The translations under genes were made by a program, and so were the position numbers. Below, in pieces: positions 7,226 to 52,618 of a stretch of 64,000 nucleotides of DNA. Positions within the stretch are counted from its first letter, which is position 1. Each line of letters opens with the position of its first letter. The notes under the pieces were generated by a model. That model was not told the origin of the DNA, searched no databases, and saw only the letters and a list, made by a program, of their open reading frames with translations. The DNA comes from Halorientalis salina (lineage in GTDB: Archaea; Halobacteriota; Halobacteria; Halobacteriales; Haloarculaceae): positions 62,001 to 126,000 of the forward strand of contig NZ_SOSC01000006.1 in NCBI RefSeq assembly GCF_005049285.1. Direction: 5' to 3'.

Positions 7226-8275
7226 ATGGCAGCAAGCGAAAACCTAGAGGACCTGCCGGGCGTCGGTCCGGCGACAGCGGAGAAGTTAGAGGAAAACGGG
7301 TTCGACTCCTATCAGGGCATCGCGGTCGCGAGCCCCGGGGAGCTCTCGAACACGGCGGACATCGGCGAGTCGAGCGCCTCCGACATCATCCAGGCCGCCC
7401 GCGAGGCCGCCGACATCGGCGGGTTCGAGTCGGGTGCACAGGTCCTGGAACGGCGCGAGCAGATCGGCAAGCTCACCTGGGGCGTCGACGAGGTCGACGA
7501 ACTGCTCGGCGGCGGCGTCGAGACCCAGTCCATCACCGAGGTGTACGGCGAGTTCGGGGCCGGGAAGTCCCAGGTCACCCACCAGCTGGCCGTCAACGTC
7601 CAGCTCCCGAAGGAACACGGCGGCCTCGAGGGCAGCGCCATCTTCGTCGACAGCGAGGACACGTTCCGCCCCGAGCGGATCGACCAGATGGTCCGGGGCC
7701 ACGACGACGAGGTCCTGGCCGCCGCGATGGAGCTCCACGGACTCGTCGGCGAGGACGAGGAGGCCGACCCCACCGACGAGGGCCTGCTGGAGGACCTCGT
7801 CGAGGTCATGCTCGACAACATCCACGTCGCGAAGGCCTTCAACTCCAACCACCAGATCCTGCTGGCCGAGAAGGCCAAGGAACTCGCCAGCGAGAGCCAG
7901 GACGACGAGTTCCCCGTTCGCCTGCTCGCGGTCGACTCCCTCACTGCGCACTTCCGCGCCGAGTACGTCGGCCGTGGCGAACTCGCCGAGCGCCAGCAGA
8001 AACTCAACAAACACCTCCACGACCTGATGCGCGTCGGCGACCTCAACAACACGGCCGTCGTCGTCACCAACCAGGTCGCCTCGAACCCCGATTCCTTCTT
8101 CGGGGACCCTACCCAGCCCATCGGCGGGAACATCCTGGGCCACACCTCCACGTTCCGCATCTACCTCCGCAAATCCAAGGGGAACAAGCGCATCGTCAAG
8201 CTCGTCGACGCGCCGAACCTCCCCGACGGCGAGGGCGTCATGCGCGTCGAGGAAGGCGGCCTCATGAACGAATAG
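7226..8275 (+). CDS. radA: DNA repair and recombination protein RadA
   Basis: 349 residues, the usual length without an intein. The N-terminal helix-hairpin-helix domain has [12 protein letters not shown] (10-21). The ATPase core has Walker A GEFGAGKS (108-115), the polymerisation/ATP-cap segment [12 protein letters not shown], Walker B LLAVDS near 230, and an L2-type region ending in TNQVASNPD. RadA is the archaeal Rad51/RecA homologue that forms filaments on single-stranded DNA for strand exchange. The gene is monocistronic, with its own TATA box and a structured element beginning directly after the stop, whose T6 run on the coding strand probably ends transcription. Confidence 0.98.
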
Positions 8276-8519
8276 TACCTTTTTTCGCTTCGGGTGCGCG
8301 AAGCGCACCTCTCAGCGAAAAAATCTACGCTAAAAAAGCCGGACGCGCCTGCGGCGCGTCCGGTGTCTTCGCGAGTAGCGTGGCGGCGAAGCCGCCACGA
8401 GCGATCGGCTCGGAAGACGCTAAGCGTCTTCCGGTGTCTGCATGAGTGCACCGCACGAACGCAGGGCCCTCAGAGCTTTACTCTGACAGTGAACCACGGC
8501 GCTTCGAGCCGCGGATGCT
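8276..8519 (-). repeat. Dispersed structured element, copy 1 (long, hairpin-rich)
   Basis: Read on the minus strand it begins AGCATCCG (8512-8519), followed by a short hairpin and TGGTTCAC, like copies at 10724, 12440 and 52424. It then holds CAGAG/CTCTG (8471-8485) and compact stems GGAAGACGC-TAA (8411-8433), CGTGGCGGC-GAA (8379-8399) and CCGGACGCGC (8339-8363). It ends with the family's T-strand, the terminal hairpin GGTGCGC-GAA-GCGCACC (8293-8309) and GAAAAAAGGTA. That last base directly follows the radA stop. On the radA strand the first transcribed bases after the stop are TACCTTTTTT, a likely terminator. No protein is encoded. Confidence 0.75.
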
Positions 8520-10723: not shown

Positions 10724-10866
10724 AGCATCCGCCGCCGGAGGCGGCGGTTCACTCGACGCTCACCCACAGGGTTCGCGTCGAGCAGTTTTTAGCCCAGGTT
10801 TTTGCGATGGGGGATACCCGCAGGCAGCTTCGCTGCCGAGGACATCCCCCGACGTAAAAAAGTGGG
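10724..10866 (+). repeat. Dispersed structured element, copy 2, abutting the srp54 stop
   Basis: Starts AGCATCCG (10724-10731). Hairpin 1 is CCGCCGCC-GGA-GGCGGCGG (10729-10747), then TTCAC. Hairpin 2 is CTCGACGC (10752-10759) with GCGTCGAG (10775-10782). The T-strand follows (TTTTTAGCCCAGGTTTTTGCGA), then the terminal stem and GACGTAAAAAAGTGGG, ending at 10866. The next base is the srp54 stop codon on the other strand. On the srp54 strand the mRNA therefore runs TAA-CCCACTTTTTTAC, a probable U-tract terminator. Same architecture as copies at 12933 and 52424. Confidence 0.8.
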
Positions 10867-12319: not shown

Positions 12320-12440
12320 CCATCTTTTTCTTCGTCGGGTTCGCCTCCGGCGAACCACTCCTCGAAAAACATGGGTGAAAAAGGCGCGACTTCGCTTCGC
12401 TCGTCGCGTGAACCGCGCTCGCAGCGCTCGCGCGGATGCT
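12320..12440 (-). repeat. Dispersed structured element, copy 3, next to the srp54 promoter
   Basis: Read on the minus strand: AGCATCCG (12433-12440), a hairpin with GCGAGCGCTGCGAGCGC-type arms, GGTTCAC, a second imperfect stem, then a TTTTTCACCCATGTTTTTCGAGG-type T-strand. The terminal hairpin TTCGCC-GGA-GGCGAA follows, then CCCGACGAAGAAAAAGATGG. CCAT-TTTTTC of the T-strand pairs with GAAAAA-ATGG of the A-strand apart from one G-G mismatch. The sequence GTACTGACCACC just before AGCATCCG is also found before copy 6 at 52247, so the repeat unit may extend further 5'. Confidence 0.8.
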
Positions 12441-12932: not shown

Positions 12933-13075
12933 AGCATCCGGCGCGCTTGCGCGCCGGTTCACCGGACGCGAGTGCAACGAGCGTCCGGCGGTTTTAGTCC
13001 AGGTTTTGCGACGGAGTGGTTCCGCAACGAGCGCCGACGGCGCGAGTGAGGAAACCCGAGGGAGTAAAAAGTGGG
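12933..13075 (+). repeat. Dispersed structured element, copy 4, beside the ftsY stop
   Basis: AGCATCCG (12933-12940). Hairpin 1 is CCGGCGCGC/GCGCGCCGG (12938-12957), then TTCAC. Hairpin 2 is CCGGACGC (12962-12969) with GCGTCCGG (12981-12988). The T-strand is TTTTAGTCCAGGTTTTGCGA. The terminal arm contains GCGCC-GAC-GGCGC (13031-13043), and CCCGAGGGAGTAAAAAGTGGG ends at 13075. The ftsY stop codon is 4 nt further on, on the other strand. The hairpin sequences differ from copies 2 and 9 while pairing is kept, which is direct covariation. Confidence 0.8.
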
Positions 13076-15957: not shown

Positions 15958-16226
15958 CCGCGCCACATCTCGCGGGTCACTCCGTTCCCCGCTCGCATCT
16001 CCGTGGTTCTCGCTACCGCTCGAACCGCGCCACGTCTCGCGGGTCGTGCCTCCCCGCTCGCATCTCCGTGGTTCTCGCTATCGCTCGAACCGCGCCACAT
16101 CTCGCGAGTCGTGCCTCCCCGCTCGCATCTCCGTGGTTCTCGCTATCGCTCGAACCGCGCCACATCTCGCGAGTCGTGCCTCCCCGCTCGCATCTCCGTG
16201 GTTCTCGCTACCGCTCGAACCACGCT
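15958..16226. repeat. 65-bp tandem repeat, about four units
   Basis: Units begin CTCGCATCTCCGTGG at 15992, 16057, 16122 and 16187 (exact 65-nt spacing). A partial unit precedes (from 15958) and the last unit decays after about 40 nt. Units 2 and 3 are almost identical; variation is confined to a few positions (ctacc/ctatc, acg/aca, cggg/cgag). Since 65 is not a multiple of three, the frame shifts each unit, so this is not a protein repeat. Each unit contains CTCGCGAG-like and GGTTC/GAACC complementary arms. It fills the gap between two convergent genes. Confidence 0.9.
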
Positions 16227-42000: not shown

Positions 42001-42378
42001 GTCCGTGCGAACGAGATGTTGCAGTCTGTCTTCCGCAATCTACTGAAAAACGCGATCGAACACAACGACAAGGCGGTCCCCGAAGTGGTGGTCTCGGCCA
42101 CCCAGCGCGAGGACAGCGTCGTCGTCGACGTCGCCGACAACGGCCCGGGCATCCCCGAAGCCCAGCGAAGCGAGATCTTCGGCAAAGGCGAAAAGGGCCT
42201 GGAGAGCGACGGGACCGGCATCGGTCTCTATCTCGTGGCCACGCTCGTCGAGCAGTACGGCGGCGGCGTGTGGATCAGCGACAGAGCGGAGCGGAGCTCC
42301 GCAGGCAACCGGACGCAGTCCGGTGACAACGACCCCGACGGCGCGGTGTTCCACGTCGAACTCCCGAAAGCCGAATGA
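39022..42378 (+). CDS. Seven-PAS-domain sensor histidine kinase
   Basis: 1118 residues with no membrane span. Seven PAS domains can be counted by their repeating pattern (for example AVITVDRELTVLFANPAVERVLGYEP near 35-60, IIVHDGDGAILDVNDQTV near 415, VYITDTDGTIEYVNSAF near 535). Each is followed by a DITER(K/R)E-type PAC linker. HisKA follows with VRHDIRNDL (phospho-acceptor His near 896), and HATPase with NLLKNAIEHN (N box) and DNGPGIPE...GTGIGLYL (G boxes). It should be a cytosolic multi-input sensor; at least some PAS domains may bind haem or flavin, but that cannot be read here. No response regulator gene is adjacent, as is common in haloarchaea. Confidence 0.92.
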   Translation: MPPVSTDDEADTWADTLDGGFCRAVAEHVPAAVITVDRELTVLFANPAVERVLGYEPETLVGRQLEAVIPERRRRDELERLEEAVCEPDTAGSELQLRVETDSGRERSLSLSVTEHEYDGETVFTGVVRDVSERQQTTELEQQRELFERVQDLADVGIWEYDPTTEELTWSAGVREIHGVDESFEPTMADAIEFYHPADRDEIERLIARALEDGEFYDTDLRIVRADGDVRDVRSRGEVVTDAEGNVELLRGVFQDITERKERERELERYEALAENMDEMAFVVGADRQLEYANRSATAYTGRSTEDLVGRSVTSLVSEFVVDEGAPERFERALRDVFDHENGAEPDRLEGRLKLPSGEVVVEYQFSSFVSDGERKAIVVARDVTERRERERELLESQKRQRALFEQSPDAIIVHDGDGAILDVNDQTVADLGYGREELLSMNAADIETGIDAEELTSKWARLDVGDKWKLESRHRRKDGSTFPVELWINKVEIGGEPRFIALSRDITDRKASERDSRRFRKAVEQAAHAVYITDTDGTIEYVNSAFEEQTGYAAEAAVGETPHILNSGRHDEAYFEEMWDTILSGEVWKREVVNERADGTEYYADQTVAPIEGHDGEIEAFVAVNRDITARKEMESKLRRREARFRMMFQRHSAPMLLIEPDSGRIEDANDAATEFYGYSWDELTGMDIDEINCQCAEEVATERKRAEREERNHFVFEHELASGETRTVEVHSSPIPDGDEELLFSVIHDITERREYERELESYKELVDNVPVGIYRNTPGEDGEFVEVNPAMVEMFDAESATQLCETAVSELYADPNQREAFSDRVDEEGIVTEAELRLETLAGDPFWASVTAITNETGARTYFDGVILDITERKEYEQRLKQQRDNLEILNQMVRHDIRNDLQLVLAYAELLEDRVDDTGAEYLETVIESTENAVELTKSARDLADVMLQTDAEHDRTDLALVLEQQVDEIRSEHTDAVVAVEGQLPDVEVRANEMLQSVFRNLLKNAIEHNDKAVPEVVVSATQREDSVVVDVADNGPGIPEAQRSEIFGKGEKGLESDGTGIGLYLVATLVEQYGGGVWISDRAERSSAGNRTQSGDNDPDGAVFHVELPKAE

Positions 42379-43547: not shown

Positions 43548-43590
43548 TTGCCGACAACTGAAAACAGTTCGCGAACTGGGCTCACGAAAC

Positions 43591-43920
43591 ACTCCACGGC
43601 TCCCCCCGGTCGCCGTTCCGTTTCGAGGTCTCGCTTCGTCGCCGGGCGACCCGTGAGTCGCCCGGCTGTCACCGGACTACGTCCGGTGGCCCGCGGGACT
43701 GCGTCCCGCCCTGCAAGCGAGAGCGAAGCTCTCGCCCTGCTCGACCTCGCCCTCACCGTCGCCAGCCTACGGCCGGCTGTCATCGGCCTCTGGCCGATTG
43801 CCCGAGGGACTCCGTCCCTCCCTGCTAGAGGGACCTCCGGTCCCTCACCGCTCACGTACTGCGCTCACGGTTCACTCCACGGCTCCCCCCGTCGCTGTTC
43901 CGTTTCGAGGTTTCGCTCCG
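43591..43920. repeat. Hairpin array flanked by about 47-bp direct repeats
   Basis: The flanking repeats are 43591-43638 and 43874-43920 (ACTCCACGGCTCCCCCCG start, two or three mismatches plus a 1-nt indel). Between them lie perfect hairpins: GCCGGGCGAC/GTCGCCCGGC (43641-43666), CACCGGAC-TAC (43670-43688), GCGGGAC-TGC (43693-43709), GCGAGAGC-GAA (43717-43735), ATCGGCC-TCT (43782-43798), GAGGGAC-TCC (43804-43820), GAGGGACC-TCC (43828-43846). All but the first have 3-nt loops and different stems. The gap lies between two convergent gene ends. No reading frame is supported. Confidence 0.85.
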
Positions 43921-43933
43921 CTCAACCTCGCCC

Positions 43934-44776
43934 TCACCGTTCCCGAACAACCACGAACTCCGCGAGATCCTGCAGATACGCCAGCGCCTGCGAGTCCGTC
44001 ACGTCGACCGCCGAGATGGCGGCCAGCGCGTCGTCCGACAGGTCCCGCGCCCGCTCGTTGGCTTCTGCCGGCGTCAGATCGGTCACCTGCACGAGCGAGG
44101 GGCGGTCCATCGTCTCGTCGTGTCCCGTCGGTTTCCCCAGGTCGTCGGCGTCCGCCGTCGCGTCGAGGACGTCGTCGCGCATCTGGAACGCGATCCCGAC
44201 GCGCTCGGCGTACTGCCCGAACGCTTCGACGGTGTAGGCGTCGGCGTCCGCGGCGATCGCACCGAGTTCAGCCGCCGCTCGGAACAGCGCCCCGGTCTTC
44301 CGTCGGGCCAGTTCCATGTACTCGTCTTCGGTCTCGGGCTGGGCGACCAGTTCCGTGGCCTCTCCCTCGCCGAGTTCGACCATCGCCTCCGAGACGGCCT
44401 GCATCGCCCGCTCGTCGGCCGAGAACAGTGCGAAGGCCTCGCCGAGCAGTCCGTCCGAGGCGATGATGGCCGGGCCAAACCCGAACTCCGCCCACGCGCT
44501 CGGGACGCCCCGGCGAACGTCCGAGTCGTCGATGATGTCGTCGATCACCAGCGAGGCGTTGTGGACGAGCTCGATGCCGACGGCGAGATCGACCGCGTCC
44601 CCGGGGTCGCCGCCGAGGGCCTCACAGACGAGCACGGTGACCGTCGGTCGGACGCGTTTCCCGCCCGAGAGCGTGACGTGTCGGACCTCGTCAGCCAACT
44701 CCGACGGTTCGACGCCGTCGAGAACCTCCTCGAGACGCTCCTCGACGCGCGCCCGTCGGCTCTCAAGGTACTCCAT
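43934..44776 (-). CDS. Polyprenyl diphosphate synthase (GGPP/GFPP synthase type)
   Basis: 280 residues. The first aspartate-rich motif is D79-D80-II-D83-D84. GGKRVRP (38-44) binds the allylic/isopentenyl diphosphate. The second DDxxD is D201-D202-VL-D205. Residues before the first motif (HNASLVI) are small, with no bulky aromatic at the position that limits FPP synthases, so a C20 or C25 product is likely. Such products feed archaeal membrane lipid synthesis. Its 3' end lies directly next to the hairpin array. Confidence 0.9.
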   Translation of the reverse strand: MEYLESRRARVEERLEEVLDGVEPSELADEVRHVTLSGGKRVRPTVTVLVCEALGGDPGDAVDLAVGIELVHNASLVIDDIIDDSDVRRGVPSAWAEFGFGPAIIASDGLLGEAFALFSADERAMQAVSEAMVELGEGEATELVAQPETEDEYMELARRKTGALFRAAAELGAIAADADAYTVEAFGQYAERVGIAFQMRDDVLDATADADDLGKPTGHDETMDRPSLVQVTDLTPAEANERARDLSDDALAAISAVDVTDSQALAYLQDLAEFVVVRER

Positions 44777-46042: not shown

Positions 46043-46098
46043 GCCGCCCGCAGCCGTTTAGCCGATTATACGTCGGGGACTTCGCCGCCGAACTCCTC
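46043..46098 (-). repeat. Displaced second copy of the etfA 3' end
   Basis: 56 nt that match 46252-46307 (the true end of etfA plus 23 nt downstream) at 50 positions. Read on the minus strand it encodes EEFGGEVPDV and a stop, exactly like etfA. The two differences inside the codons (GTT/GTC, CCT/CCC) are both synonymous. The interval between the two copies is the structured element. Confidence 0.88.
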
Positions 46099-46102
46099 AA
46101 AT

Positions 46103-46251
46103 CCACCTTTTTCTGCGTCGGGTGGCCTCGCTCGCGTGGCTCGCTACGGCCACCACTCCTTGAAAAATCTGGACCAAAAAAGCGGCTGCTCGCTGACTCA
46201 CGGGCGCCGCCCGTTCGTCTCTCCGAGGCGCTCCCGTTGGTCGCGCCTCGC
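46103..46251 (-). repeat. Dispersed structured element, copy 5, between two etfA tails
   Basis: Read on the minus strand it begins next to the right direct repeat and has several stems (GGCGC-type and GGCTGC/GCAGCC arms). It then has the family core CCGCTTTTTTGGTCCAGATTTTTC-AAGGAGTGGT, a terminal GGCC/GGCC-type arm, and CCCGACGCAGAAAAAGGTGGA. It lacks AGCATCCG. It lies exactly between the 56-bp direct repeats formed by the true and displaced etfA 3' ends, with 4 nt spare at the left edge. This is the clearest sign that the unit inserts or recombines at gene ends. Confidence 0.8.
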
Positions 46252-46274
46252 GCCGCTCGCAGCCGTCCAACCGA

Positions 46275-47246
46275 TTATACGTCAGGAACTTCGCCGCCGA
46301 ACTCCTCGATGAGCGCGGGGACGACGTCGAAGAGGTCGTCTTCGATCCCGTAGTCGGCGAGGTCGTAGATCGGCGCGTTCGGGTCCGTGTTGATCGCGAC
46401 GATCGTGTCGGCACCCTTCATCCCGGCGACGTGCTGGACAGCGCCGGAGATACCGATGGCGATGTAGACGTCGGGGGTGACGACCTTCCCGGACTGGCCG
46501 ACCTGCCGGTTGGCCGGCAGCCAGCCGTTGTCGACGATCGGTCGGGACGACGACAGCGTCGCGTCGGTCGCCTCGACGAGCGCCTCGATGAGCGGGAGGT
46601 TCTCCTCCTCTTCGATCCCGCGACCGATAGAGACGAGGAACTCCGCCTCGCTGATGTCGACGTCGCCGCCAGCGACTTCCTCGAAGCCGGTGACCGTCGA
46701 CTGGATCTGGCTCTCGTCGATGTCGGCGTCGAACGCCGAGACCTCGGCGTCGCCCTGGCCTTCGGCCTGGGGCCACTCGGCCGGACGAGTGGTGATGGCG
46801 GCGCGGTCTTCGGAGACCTCGATGGTGGTCTCGACCTTGCCACCGTACTGTTCGCGGGTGACTTCCAGTTCGCCGTCGGCCGAGAAGTCGACCACGTCGG
46901 TCACCAGCGGCAGCGAGAGGCCCTCGGCGACCGCCGGGGCGTAGTCCAGCCCGTTGACCGAGTTGGGCATGAGGACGTACTCGGCGTCGAGGTCGTCGGC
47001 GAGCTGTTCGACGGCCTGCGCGTAGACGTCGTGGTTGAACTCCTCACCGTACTCGACGGTGTGGATGGCGTCGACGCCCTCGCGGTTGACCTGGTCGGCG
47101 TACGCGTCGACGTCACCGCTGATGACGGCCAGGTGGAGGTCGCCCCCCATCTCGTCGGCCAGGTCGCGGCCGGCCGACACCATCTCCAGGCTCACGTCGC
47201 GCAGTTCGCCGCGGCGGTGTTCGGTGACAGCGAGTACGTCACTCAT
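46275..47246 (-). CDS. etfA: Electron transfer flavoprotein alpha subunit
   Basis: 323 residues. The C-terminal FAD domain is recognisable in VSIGRGIEEEENLPLIEAL, SSSRPIVDNGWLPANRQVGQSGKVV and AIGISGAVQHVAGMKGADTIVAINTD. ETF passes electrons from acyl-CoA or other dehydrogenases to ETF:quinone oxidoreductase. It overlaps etfB by 4 nt (ATGA). The unusual feature is at its 3' end: the last ten codons, the stop and a further 23 nt are present twice, once as the true gene end and once 209 nt further on, with the structured element between. Confidence 0.95.
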   Translation of the reverse strand: MSDVLAVTEHRRGELRDVSLEMVSAGRDLADEMGGDLHLAVISGDVDAYADQVNREGVDAIHTVEYGEEFNHDVYAQAVEQLADDLDAEYVLMPNSVNGLDYAPAVAEGLSLPLVTDVVDFSADGELEVTREQYGGKVETTIEVSEDRAAITTRPAEWPQAEGQGDAEVSAFDADIDESQIQSTVTGFEEVAGGDVDISEAEFLVSIGRGIEEEENLPLIEALVEATDATLSSSRPIVDNGWLPANRQVGQSGKVVTPDVYIAIGISGAVQHVAGMKGADTIVAINTDPNAPIYDLADYGIEDDLFDVVPALIEEFGGEVPDV

Positions 47247-51335: not shown

Positions 51336-51353
51336 CCGTCAGGAACCCCTCGA

Positions 51354-51393
51354 TAGGCCTCGGGAACGTCGGCGACCGTCGTGATGGCGATCT
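51354..51393 (-). repeat. Displaced second copy of the 3' end of the methyltransferase gene
   Basis: On the minus strand it encodes EIAITTVADVPEA, against EIAITTVAKVPEE and stop at the true gene end (about 51543-51584). Twenty bases (51372-51391 and 51562-51581) are identical. Outside these most differences are synonymous (GAA/GAG, GCG/GCC, GTG/GTT, CCA/CCC). This copy has lost the stop codon. It begins directly after the end of the structured element. Confidence 0.8.
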
Positions 51394-51541
51394 CCCACCT
51401 TTTACTTCGTCGGGTTCGCTCGCTCCGTCGCCGGCGCTATGCGCCGGCTGCCTGGGAGAGCTTCGCTCTCCCTCCGCTCACGAACCGCTTCTCGCAAAAG
51501 CTGGACCAAAACTGCTGGCCGCTCACACAGTTCGCGGCCAG
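51394..51541 (-). repeat. Dispersed structured element, copy 6, between two methyltransferase tails
   Basis: Read on the minus strand from just after the methyltransferase stop: CTGGCCGC/GCGGCCAG hairpin (51515-51541), CAGTTTTGGTCCAGCTTTTGCGAGAAGCGGTTCGTGAGC, a nested stem GGGAGAGC-GAA-GCTCTCCC, then GCCGGCGC-ATA-GCGCCGGC, and the A-strand ACCCGACGAAGTAAAAGGTGGG. It lacks AGCATCCG like copy 5. Its 5' end touches the stop codon and its 3' end touches the displaced gene tail. Confidence 0.78.
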
Positions 51542-51542
51542 T

Positions 51543-52169
51543 CTACTCCTCTGGCACCTTCGCGACCGTCGTGATGGCGATTTCGGGGTTGTAGTCCGGC
51601 CCCATCGTCCGGTGTTCGAAGTCGGTGAAGCCGGCCTCGCGGAACATCCGGTCGGCCTCCTCGCGGTCGTAAAAGAGCATGATGGCGTCGGCGAGCTTCT
51701 GGAACACCGTCGAGTTCGGGTAGTTCGGGCCGACGATGAGGACCTGGCCGCCCGGCTTCGCCACGCGACGACACTCCCTGATCGCCGCGACGGGATTGGG
51801 CCAGTACTCGATGGAGCCCGACGACCAGACGACGTCGAAGCTGTCGTCAGCGAAGGGGAGTCGCTCGGCGTCGCCCAGCTGGAAGGTGACCGGACCGTCG
51901 GTCTTCCCGAACTTCGCGTAGGCTTTCTCTAGCTGGTGTGGACTCTGATCGAGGCCGTACACGTGGTCGACCTCGTTCAGCAGCCCTTCGGTGGCAAAGC
52001 CCGTGCCACAGCCGACGTCGAGGACCCGGTCTTCGGGAGCGAGGTCGAGCATCCCGATGGCCTCGGTCCGCATCTCCTCGTTCCAGATGAACGGGTTGAC
52101 CTGATCGTAGACCGTCGAGAGGTACTTGTAGAAGGTCCGTGCCCGCGACTTGTTCTCGAGGACTCCCAT
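51543..52169 (-). CDS. SAM-dependent methyltransferase, MPBQ/MSBQ (quinone-type) family
   Basis: 208 residues from ATG 52169 (MGVLENKSRARTFYKYLSTVYDQVNPFIWN); upstream in-frame Mets run into a structured element. Motif I is VLDVGCGTGFATE, followed by LGDAERLPFADDSFDVVWSSGSIEYWPNP and GPNYPNST. The N-terminal YDQVNPFIW and the C-terminal RTMGPDYNPEI match the archaeal relatives of plant 2-methyl-6-phytylbenzoquinol methyltransferase, so it probably methylates a quinone precursor (haloarchaea use menaquinone types). The 3' end exists twice with an element between. Confidence 0.85.
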   Translation of the reverse strand: MGVLENKSRARTFYKYLSTVYDQVNPFIWNEEMRTEAIGMLDLAPEDRVLDVGCGTGFATEGLLNEVDHVYGLDQSPHQLEKAYAKFGKTDGPVTFQLGDAERLPFADDSFDVVWSSGSIEYWPNPVAAIRECRRVAKPGGQVLIVGPNYPNSTVFQKLADAIMLFYDREEADRMFREAGFTDFEHRTMGPDYNPEIAITTVAKVPEE

Positions 52170-52200
52170 TGCCCCATTTTGGGTACTCAGCGACATAATA

Positions 52201-52247
52201 CCATCTTTTTCTTCGGCGGGTGGTCTCGCTGCGCTCGTGCGGATGCT
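52201..52247 (-). repeat. Dispersed structured element, copy 7 (truncated)
   Basis: Read on the minus strand: AGCATCCG (52240-52247), a short arm, CCACCCGCCGAAGAAAAAGATGG ending at 52201. The middle part (T-strand) is missing. Upstream of AGCATCCG is CTACTGACCACC, as at copy 3. It is head to head with copy 8, separated by 33 nt, and its A-strand end is about 30 nt upstream of the methyltransferase start. Confidence 0.7.
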
Positions 52248-52280
52248 GGTGGTCAGTAGAGGCTGTGCAGTGAGCACGGA

Positions 52281-52395
52281 AGCATCCACCGAGCGAACGA
52301 AGTGAGTGAGTCGTCCGGCAGTTTTAGTCCAGGTTTTACGAGGAGTGGTGCCCGCAGGCCGGCGGCCGAGGACACCCGACGACGTAAAAAGTGGG
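52281..52395 (+). repeat. Dispersed structured element, copy 8
   Basis: AGCATCCA (52281-52288), a shortened hairpin region without TTCAC, then GTTTTAGTCCAGGTTTTACGAGGAGTGGTG, a terminal stem (CCGGC-GGCCG region), and ACCCGACGACGTAAAAAGTGGG ending at 52395. The T- and A-strands match the copy at 12933 most closely. Confidence 0.78.
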
Positions 52396-52423
52396 CACGC
52401 ACACTGAGCAACGTGGAGATACG

Positions 52424-52607
52424 AGCATCCGGCGAGATTGCTCGCCGGTTCACTGAACGCGAGGCGAAGCCGAGCGTTCAGCCTTTTTCACCCATGTACA
52501 CGAGAGCTCGCTCTCGTGTGCCCACCAGAAATCTCTGATTTCTGGGGATGTTTTTGCGAGGAGGGGTGCGCGAACGGAGTGAGCGCACCCGACGAGCAAA
52601 AAGATGG
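52424..52607 (+). repeat. Dispersed structured element, copy 9, upstream of the ATP synthase operon
   Basis: AGCATCCG (52424-52431), hairpin CCGGCGAG-ATTG-CTCGCCGG (52429-52448), TTCAC, CTGAACGC/GCGTTCAG stem (52453-52481). Two extra hairpins follow within the T-strand: ACACGAGAGC/GCTCTCGTGT (52498-52519) and CCAGAAAT/ATTTCTGG (52525-52545). Then GATGTTTTTGCGAGGAGGGGTGCGC, the terminal arm, and CACCCGACGAGCAAAAAGATGG ending at 52607. The TATA box of atpH begins 12 nt downstream. The extra hairpins look like a nested insertion. Confidence 0.8.
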
Positions 52608-52618
52608 TTTCGCAACTA

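Follow-up and report, generated by a model that had tools for sequence, protein, structure and literature searches.

A hairpin element between two copies of a gene tail: a candidate mobile terminator unit at haloarchaeal gene ends

Why should the end of a gene stand twice on the same strand, with a hairpin-rich element between the two copies? The question is raised by a UbiE-type methyltransferase gene in the window, the whole stretch of 64,000 nt of Halorientalis salina (contig NZ_SOSC01000006.1, positions 62,001 to 126,000) that was analysed here and in which the positions below are counted (Table 1). The gene belongs to Pfam Methyltransf_11 (E 6.9e-28) and has orthologs in 37 of 38 genomes. 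Its start is probably the ATG at 52196, as read from the sequence; the start of a longer open reading frame (52289) reaches into a further element copy. The gene end on the minus strand reads GAAATCGCCATCACGACGGTCGCGAAGGTGCCAGAGGAGTAG, with a product ending EIAITTVAKVPEE and the stop codon TAG. The element (51542-51395, about 148 nt, minus strand, rich in hairpins) follows directly, folds as a whole with z = -5.9 and has extra hairpins nested in the loop of its core. Its terminal GGTGG touches GAGATCGCCATCACGACGGTCGCC..., the start of the tail version EIAITTVADVPEA, which is displaced to 51394-51353 and reads GAGATCGCCATCACGACGGTCGCCGACGTTCCCGAGGCCTAT. Direct reading of the minus strand from 51584 to 51353 confirmed the tail-element-tail order of the original prediction, including the contact of the element with the stop codon at its 5' end and with the displaced tail at its 3' end. 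The predicted 20 consecutive identical bases, ATCGCCATCACGACGGTCGC, were also found, and 31 of 37 bases match in the aligned block. The other changes, expected to be mostly synonymous, are four synonymous and two non-synonymous codon differences, with TAT in the displaced copy in place of TAG. The local score of this pair is 44; in the null of mismatched flanks the 99% point is 33 and the 99.9% point 55, so that the pair taken singly is only moderately significant. Upstream of the gene, 52200-52610 is a cluster of element copies, which includes the two plus-strand cores of Table 1 and a truncated minus-strand copy (about 52201-52246) whose first hairpin joins the 3' half of the core directly.

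In the same way, the locus that had been noted first, at the ETF-alpha gene (46043-46307), proved to have the tail-element-tail order, with 50 of 56 bases identical and all differences in the coding part synonymous. The window also contains a dense run of unrelated perfect hairpins at 43560-43960 (CGGACTACGTCCG, GGGACTGCGTCCC, CGAGAGCGAAGCTCTCG...) in a non-conserved surrounding stretch, a hairpin pair like these at 42282-42328, within a reading frame ending at 42378, and, at 15986-16225, direct repeats in tandem with a period of 65 nt and 95-97% identity.

Table 1 Features of the window related to the element and to the repeated gene tails.
Feature	Position	Strand	Evidence
Element core copy without tail repeat	8275..8335	-	covariance model
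Element core copy with a convergent reading frame stopping 1 nt away	10787..10865	+	covariance model and stop distance
Element core copy without tail repeat	12320..12381	-	covariance model
Element core copy with a convergent reading frame stopping 5 nt away	12992..13074	+	covariance model and stop distance
ETF-alpha displaced tail, copy 2	46043..46098	-	50/56 identical; in-frame stop kept
Element core at ETF-alpha	46103..46179	-	covariance model, 72.5 bits
ETF-alpha gene tail and terminator start, copy 1	46252..46307	-	alignment; Pfam ETF_alpha; stop codon 46275-46277
Displaced methyltransferase gene tail, copy 2, EIAITTVADVPEA	51353..51394	-	tail alignment and codon comparison
Element core, covarying hairpin ending GGTGG	51395..51511	-	covariance model R1, 60.1 bits
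First hairpin of element, CTGGCCGC...GCGGCCAG	51512..51542	-	sequence and folding; directly 3' of stop codon
UbiE-type methyltransferase gene	51543..52196	-	stop codon 51543-51545; element at 3' end
Methyltransferase gene tail, copy 1, functional, EIAITTVAKVPEE	51546..51584	-	tail alignment and codon comparison
Element core copy 5' of methyltransferase	52322..52394	+	covariance model
Element core copy 5' of methyltransferase, nested palindrome pair before core	52539..52607	+	sequence and covariance model

The core of the element is a non-coding, covarying hairpin of about 60-75 nt with T5C runs on both strands. The alignment of 21 copies from the same genome gave the consensus T4-CGCCCACG (or GGTCCAG)-TTTTTCGAGGAGNGGT-loop-ACCCGACGAAGAAAAAGGTGG, whose ends pair and covary (CCAC/GTGG, CCAT/ATGG, GTA/TAC). 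Both sides were changed in 42 cells, compared to 12.5 in shuffles, and slid controls were far lower. Full-length copies usually start with GCATCCG and have, ahead of the core, one or two more hairpins; the core ends pair, yet the full-length ends GCATCCG and GGTGG do not make up an inverted repeat. A second palindrome pair, ACGAGAGC..GCTCTCGT and CAGAAATC..GATTTCTG, is nested in the core between CCCACG and TTTTTC at window positions of about 52480-52550, in L007, L056, L140 and L010 and at the methyltransferase locus of genome G005 (L190), and looks like the insertion of another small element.

Because diverged loops and hairpins hide copies from them, the exact-repeat listing of the window and blastn of the genome with the full element miss most copies, and a covariance model was needed. 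The H. salina genome contains 60-67 copies (67 by the covariance model at E <= 0.1), and 34 of the 39 haloarchaeal genomes gave model matches, with a maximum of about 60 in one genome. The strict core pattern matched Halobacteria only among the approximately 85,000 species genomes scanned, gave no match in viral contigs, and the Rfam search of six loci returned no match with E <= 1. Blastn showed scattered copies on a few megaplasmids (11 records), and as these are scattered and on haloarchaeal megaplasmids only, the element is not plasmid-borne in particular.

Using 143 distinct copies, we aligned the 100 nt after the element to the 300 nt before it and counted a tail repeat at a score of at least 38. 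Tail repeats were present in 13 of 66 copies from the same genome, a set made up nearly entirely of model matches, and in 26 of 77 copies sampled from relatives, a set that includes six loci chosen as tandem-looking (L147-L152) and that without these gives about 18 of 64. Overall, 39 of 143 copies carry a tail repeat, compared to 0.5% of mismatched flanks and 2 of 609 element-free pairs from the same loci; about 73% of the copies have no detectable one. The excess of gene-tail matches expected beside other copies is thus large (20% of own-genome copies versus 0.3-0.5% of controls), and the claim that chance is unlikely, which the methyltransferase pair alone supports moderately, is overwhelming for the class. 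The repeat begins 0-7 nt after GGTGG in 38 of the 39 cases and extends from within the gene, at a varying point, to its 3' terminus. It usually spans the last 27-85 nt up to the stop codon, sometimes with the terminator hairpin too, and for gene and tRNA ends together its variable length is about 22-85 nt. Its start shows two modes, at 0 and at about 4 unmatched bases after GGTGG (about half of the tail-repeat loci), and the 4 unmatched bases have no obvious common motif. The period of the unit, from start to start, is 138-331 nt. A size ruler, considered from the lack of periods below 138 nt, was rejected, as by inspection tail and element lengths do not compensate; short tails are undetectable in any case.

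Filled and empty sites were found among close relatives. The methyltransferase element and tail copy are present in four of eight genomes of the same genus (G000, G002, G004, G005), where the native downstream sequence comes after the displaced tail. The site is empty in the other four (G001, G003, G006, G007), in which the native spacer and a convergent gene come directly after the stop codon. More distant genera also have the methyltransferase element (G009, G010, G012, G020). The ornithine carbamoyltransferase (OTC) gene shows the same arrangement in eight genomes and a remnant in G014; the junction after GGTGG (CTGCC-GGACC) is common to three genera and the tail that follows is genome-specific. 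A miniature tandem, an 18-nt tail with only the last 24 nt of the core, lies directly behind the OTC stop in G014 (L244). At the EF-2 gene, an oppositely oriented element comes right after the stop codon, without a tail copy.

The copies without a tail repeat were placed with respect to their neighbours. The stop codon of a convergent long reading frame lies 0-12 nt after GGTGG in 48 of these 104 copies (37 of the 48 at 0-4 nt), compared to 3.1% at random offsets, and other copies adjoin tRNA 3' ends, the element being opposed to the tRNA in the cases examined. Since repeat-less copies abut convergent stops and tRNA 3' ends, the element lies at gene ends in both orientations. At L116 and L106, the tRNA 3' end from the acceptor stem to the T-loop (21-22 nt) is repeated beyond the hairpins, and diverged tRNA fragments are found beyond the element in L103, L115 and L149. 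Together with the excess of tail matches, these positions support the earlier proposal that gene ends are the site of integration or recombination, and the displaced tRNA 3' fragments agree with the geometry of integrases at tRNA genes to which the loci had been likened. Several tandem copies of tRNA fragments, with and without the element, stand at the tRNA 3' ends of L159, L115 and L103 and resemble a graveyard of integration events.

T5C occurs on the forward strand in 96 and on the reverse strand in 87 of the 143 copies, compared to 3.1% of 90-nt windows. In Haloferax volcanii, T5C terminated 95% of transcripts (PMC7237163). As at the Haloferax terminators, the T5C runs of the element lie directly behind genes with hairpins upstream, whereas the element has them on both strands and within a conserved, repeated sequence that carries a tail. 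The presence of T5C on both strands and the position between convergent genes suggest, at the level of sequence, that the element is a candidate two-way transcription terminator.

Considering these data, we infer with moderate confidence a mobile unit of gene tail and element that would act as a bidirectional terminator, integrating at gene ends and restoring them. The unit, able to integrate and excise, would consist of a gene tail, a terminator-like hairpin and the core ending in GGTGG, and would carry a functional gene end of its own, some 10-25 codons with the stop, or about 21 nt from the 3' end of a tRNA. By recombination in the common tail it would come to lie behind the gene, so that one tail copy and the element would end the gene and the other tail copy would be pushed beyond GGTGG. 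The process would be reversible or recurrent enough to keep both copies readable, each serving at times as the real gene end through empty and filled alleles, arrays and transfer from related strains. Because either copy would intermittently be the real end, both tails would be under coding constraint and partly homogenised. The recombination would probably be that of the host's homologous system, or possibly the work of a recombinase supplied in trans. Such a unit is the simplest account covering all observations; the first uptake of the tail of a new gene falls outside it.

A rather less probable reading is a miniature integrative element for which a dedicated tyrosine recombinase is encoded elsewhere and acts in trans, the tail being its att site and the element the minimal attP-bearing unit. 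Islands of tyrosine integrases at the 3' ends of tRNA, tmRNA and other genes follow the Islander principle (PMC4383910), and the att sites of archaeal tyrosine recombinases, 40-50 bp (PMC8371274), are comparable in length to the tails. The element resembles such islands in that element-borne sequence restores the target and a displaced 3' fragment lies at the other end (39 of 143 copies; the tRNA fragments of L116 and L106 run from the 3' end to the T-loop), in that 3' ends of tRNA and protein genes are targets, and in the occurrence of tandem arrays. However, the unit is only about 140-330 nt long and encodes no integrase, its period of 138-331 nt being too short for one. Integrases are site-specific, whereas here one core family is combined with many unrelated target genes in each genome, with no single specific attachment site; the repeat length varies widely, and the conserved hairpin of the element sits between the two tail copies. 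As the unit is too small for an integrase and one core goes with many unrelated tails, a classical sequence-specific integrase is only one of several possibilities.

The codons of the displaced tails bear on whether these are duplicates in decay. The 39 tail pairs contain 75 synonymous and 32 non-synonymous codon differences, while 42% synonymous would be expected for a constrained gene copy and a neutral displaced copy (p = 6e-9, counting tail pairs of the same gene, which are not fully independent). The displaced tail keeps a stop in register in 31 of 39 pairs, with a different stop codon in 14 of these, often TGA versus TAG. In L042, L137, L117, L157, L186 and the own-genome OTC, only synonymous or stop differences are found in the coding tail, and the displaced tail is closest to the gene of its own genome in 12 of 16. 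Non-synonymous decay, as a dead copy would show, is seen in some pairs (G012 methyltransferase, L002). Neutral target-site duplication, the first working model, was dropped because of the 75:32 synonymous excess and the exchanged stop codons. Judging from the codons, the displaced tail is not a dead duplication, and dead target duplications fail as an explanation.

A MITE-like transposition with an unusually long and variable target-site duplication, the displaced tail being its decaying duplicate, is accordingly unlikely as well: displaced tails keep frame and stop, the length of the repeat is not fixed, and a neutral copy would not track the gene of its own genome across genera. Such a transposition would agree with a multi-copy structured element, with the empty sites and with the identical or nearly identical repeats of some loci (L163 61/61, L179 67/67, L042 37/37 and L156 70/70); a fresh target duplication fits pairs such as L163 and L179 equally. 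With MITEs and REP/BIME-type palindromic repeats, the element shares its small size, non-coding and structured nature, dozens of copies and intergenic position. It differs from them by the lack of a short target duplication of fixed length, the repeat being variable and coding-constrained, and by lying flush with gene 3' ends and carrying the neighbouring gene's tail a second time in readable form. Integron cassettes have in attC a structured hairpin site at gene 3' ends and may form arrays, as does the element. However, attC recombination does not duplicate gene tails, which the element loci do, and neither whole-gene cassettes nor an integron integrase were seen at these loci. The element would work like an integrative element, and the tests give no support for its membership in any named family. 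No matching family was found in the searchable literature on haloarchaeal intergenic repeats, MITEs and integrases, subscription papers being mostly outside reach, so that the lack of a description is a weak sign of novelty.

Tandem arrays of the form (tail-element)n-tail, with nearly identical tails, could also be read without mobility, as a local tandem duplication of gene end and terminator followed by gene conversion between neighbouring tails. We consider this improbable: it fits the arrays and their concerted tails, but not an element family at 60 or more unrelated loci per genome, its opposite orientation at convergent genes and tRNAs, or the empty sites in congeners. Cores also sometimes differ within one array (L147, L150), and the middle tail of the OTC array of G004 is foreign-like, with 95% identity to the tail of G002/G003 and 88% to that of its own gene; two host-type tails flank it. 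Blocks that are identical in mid-tail and synonymously diverged at the edges (window 51395, L002, L012, G005) would be the expected trace of recombination or gap repair between coding alleles. That core and tail act as a guide RNA for their own gene, like TnpB/IscB-associated RNAs, is very improbable: the tail begins directly at the 3' end of the core, where a guide would lie, and its similarity to the gene is kept, but the offset of the identical block from the core is not fixed (mismatches at position 3 in the window pair, at 3 and 6 in L002), the variable start of the block led to the rejection of a guide or seed fixed at that junction, block length varies with synonymous mismatches inside, and no Rfam family matches.

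Returning to the mobile unit of tail and element, we suggest tentatively that it may represent a new class of minimal mobile DNA in haloarchaea. These would be integrase-less, non-coding units of about 100-250 nt, each with a functional 3' end to replace that of one host gene, integrating by homology at the end of that gene, terminating transcription in both directions and passing between species as gene-specific lineages, with displaced tails under selection at the protein level. If this is true, tiny non-coding elements would recombine again and again at gene 3' ends across an archaeal class. Core genes, ornithine carbamoyltransferase and ETF-alpha among them, would have had their C-terminal codons and stop codons exchanged repeatedly. 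The integrase/tDNA principle would then hold for units much smaller than the integrative elements known so far. The units would additionally provide ready-made two-way terminators, and a testable case of displaced sequence held under codon-level selection as an intermittent real gene end.
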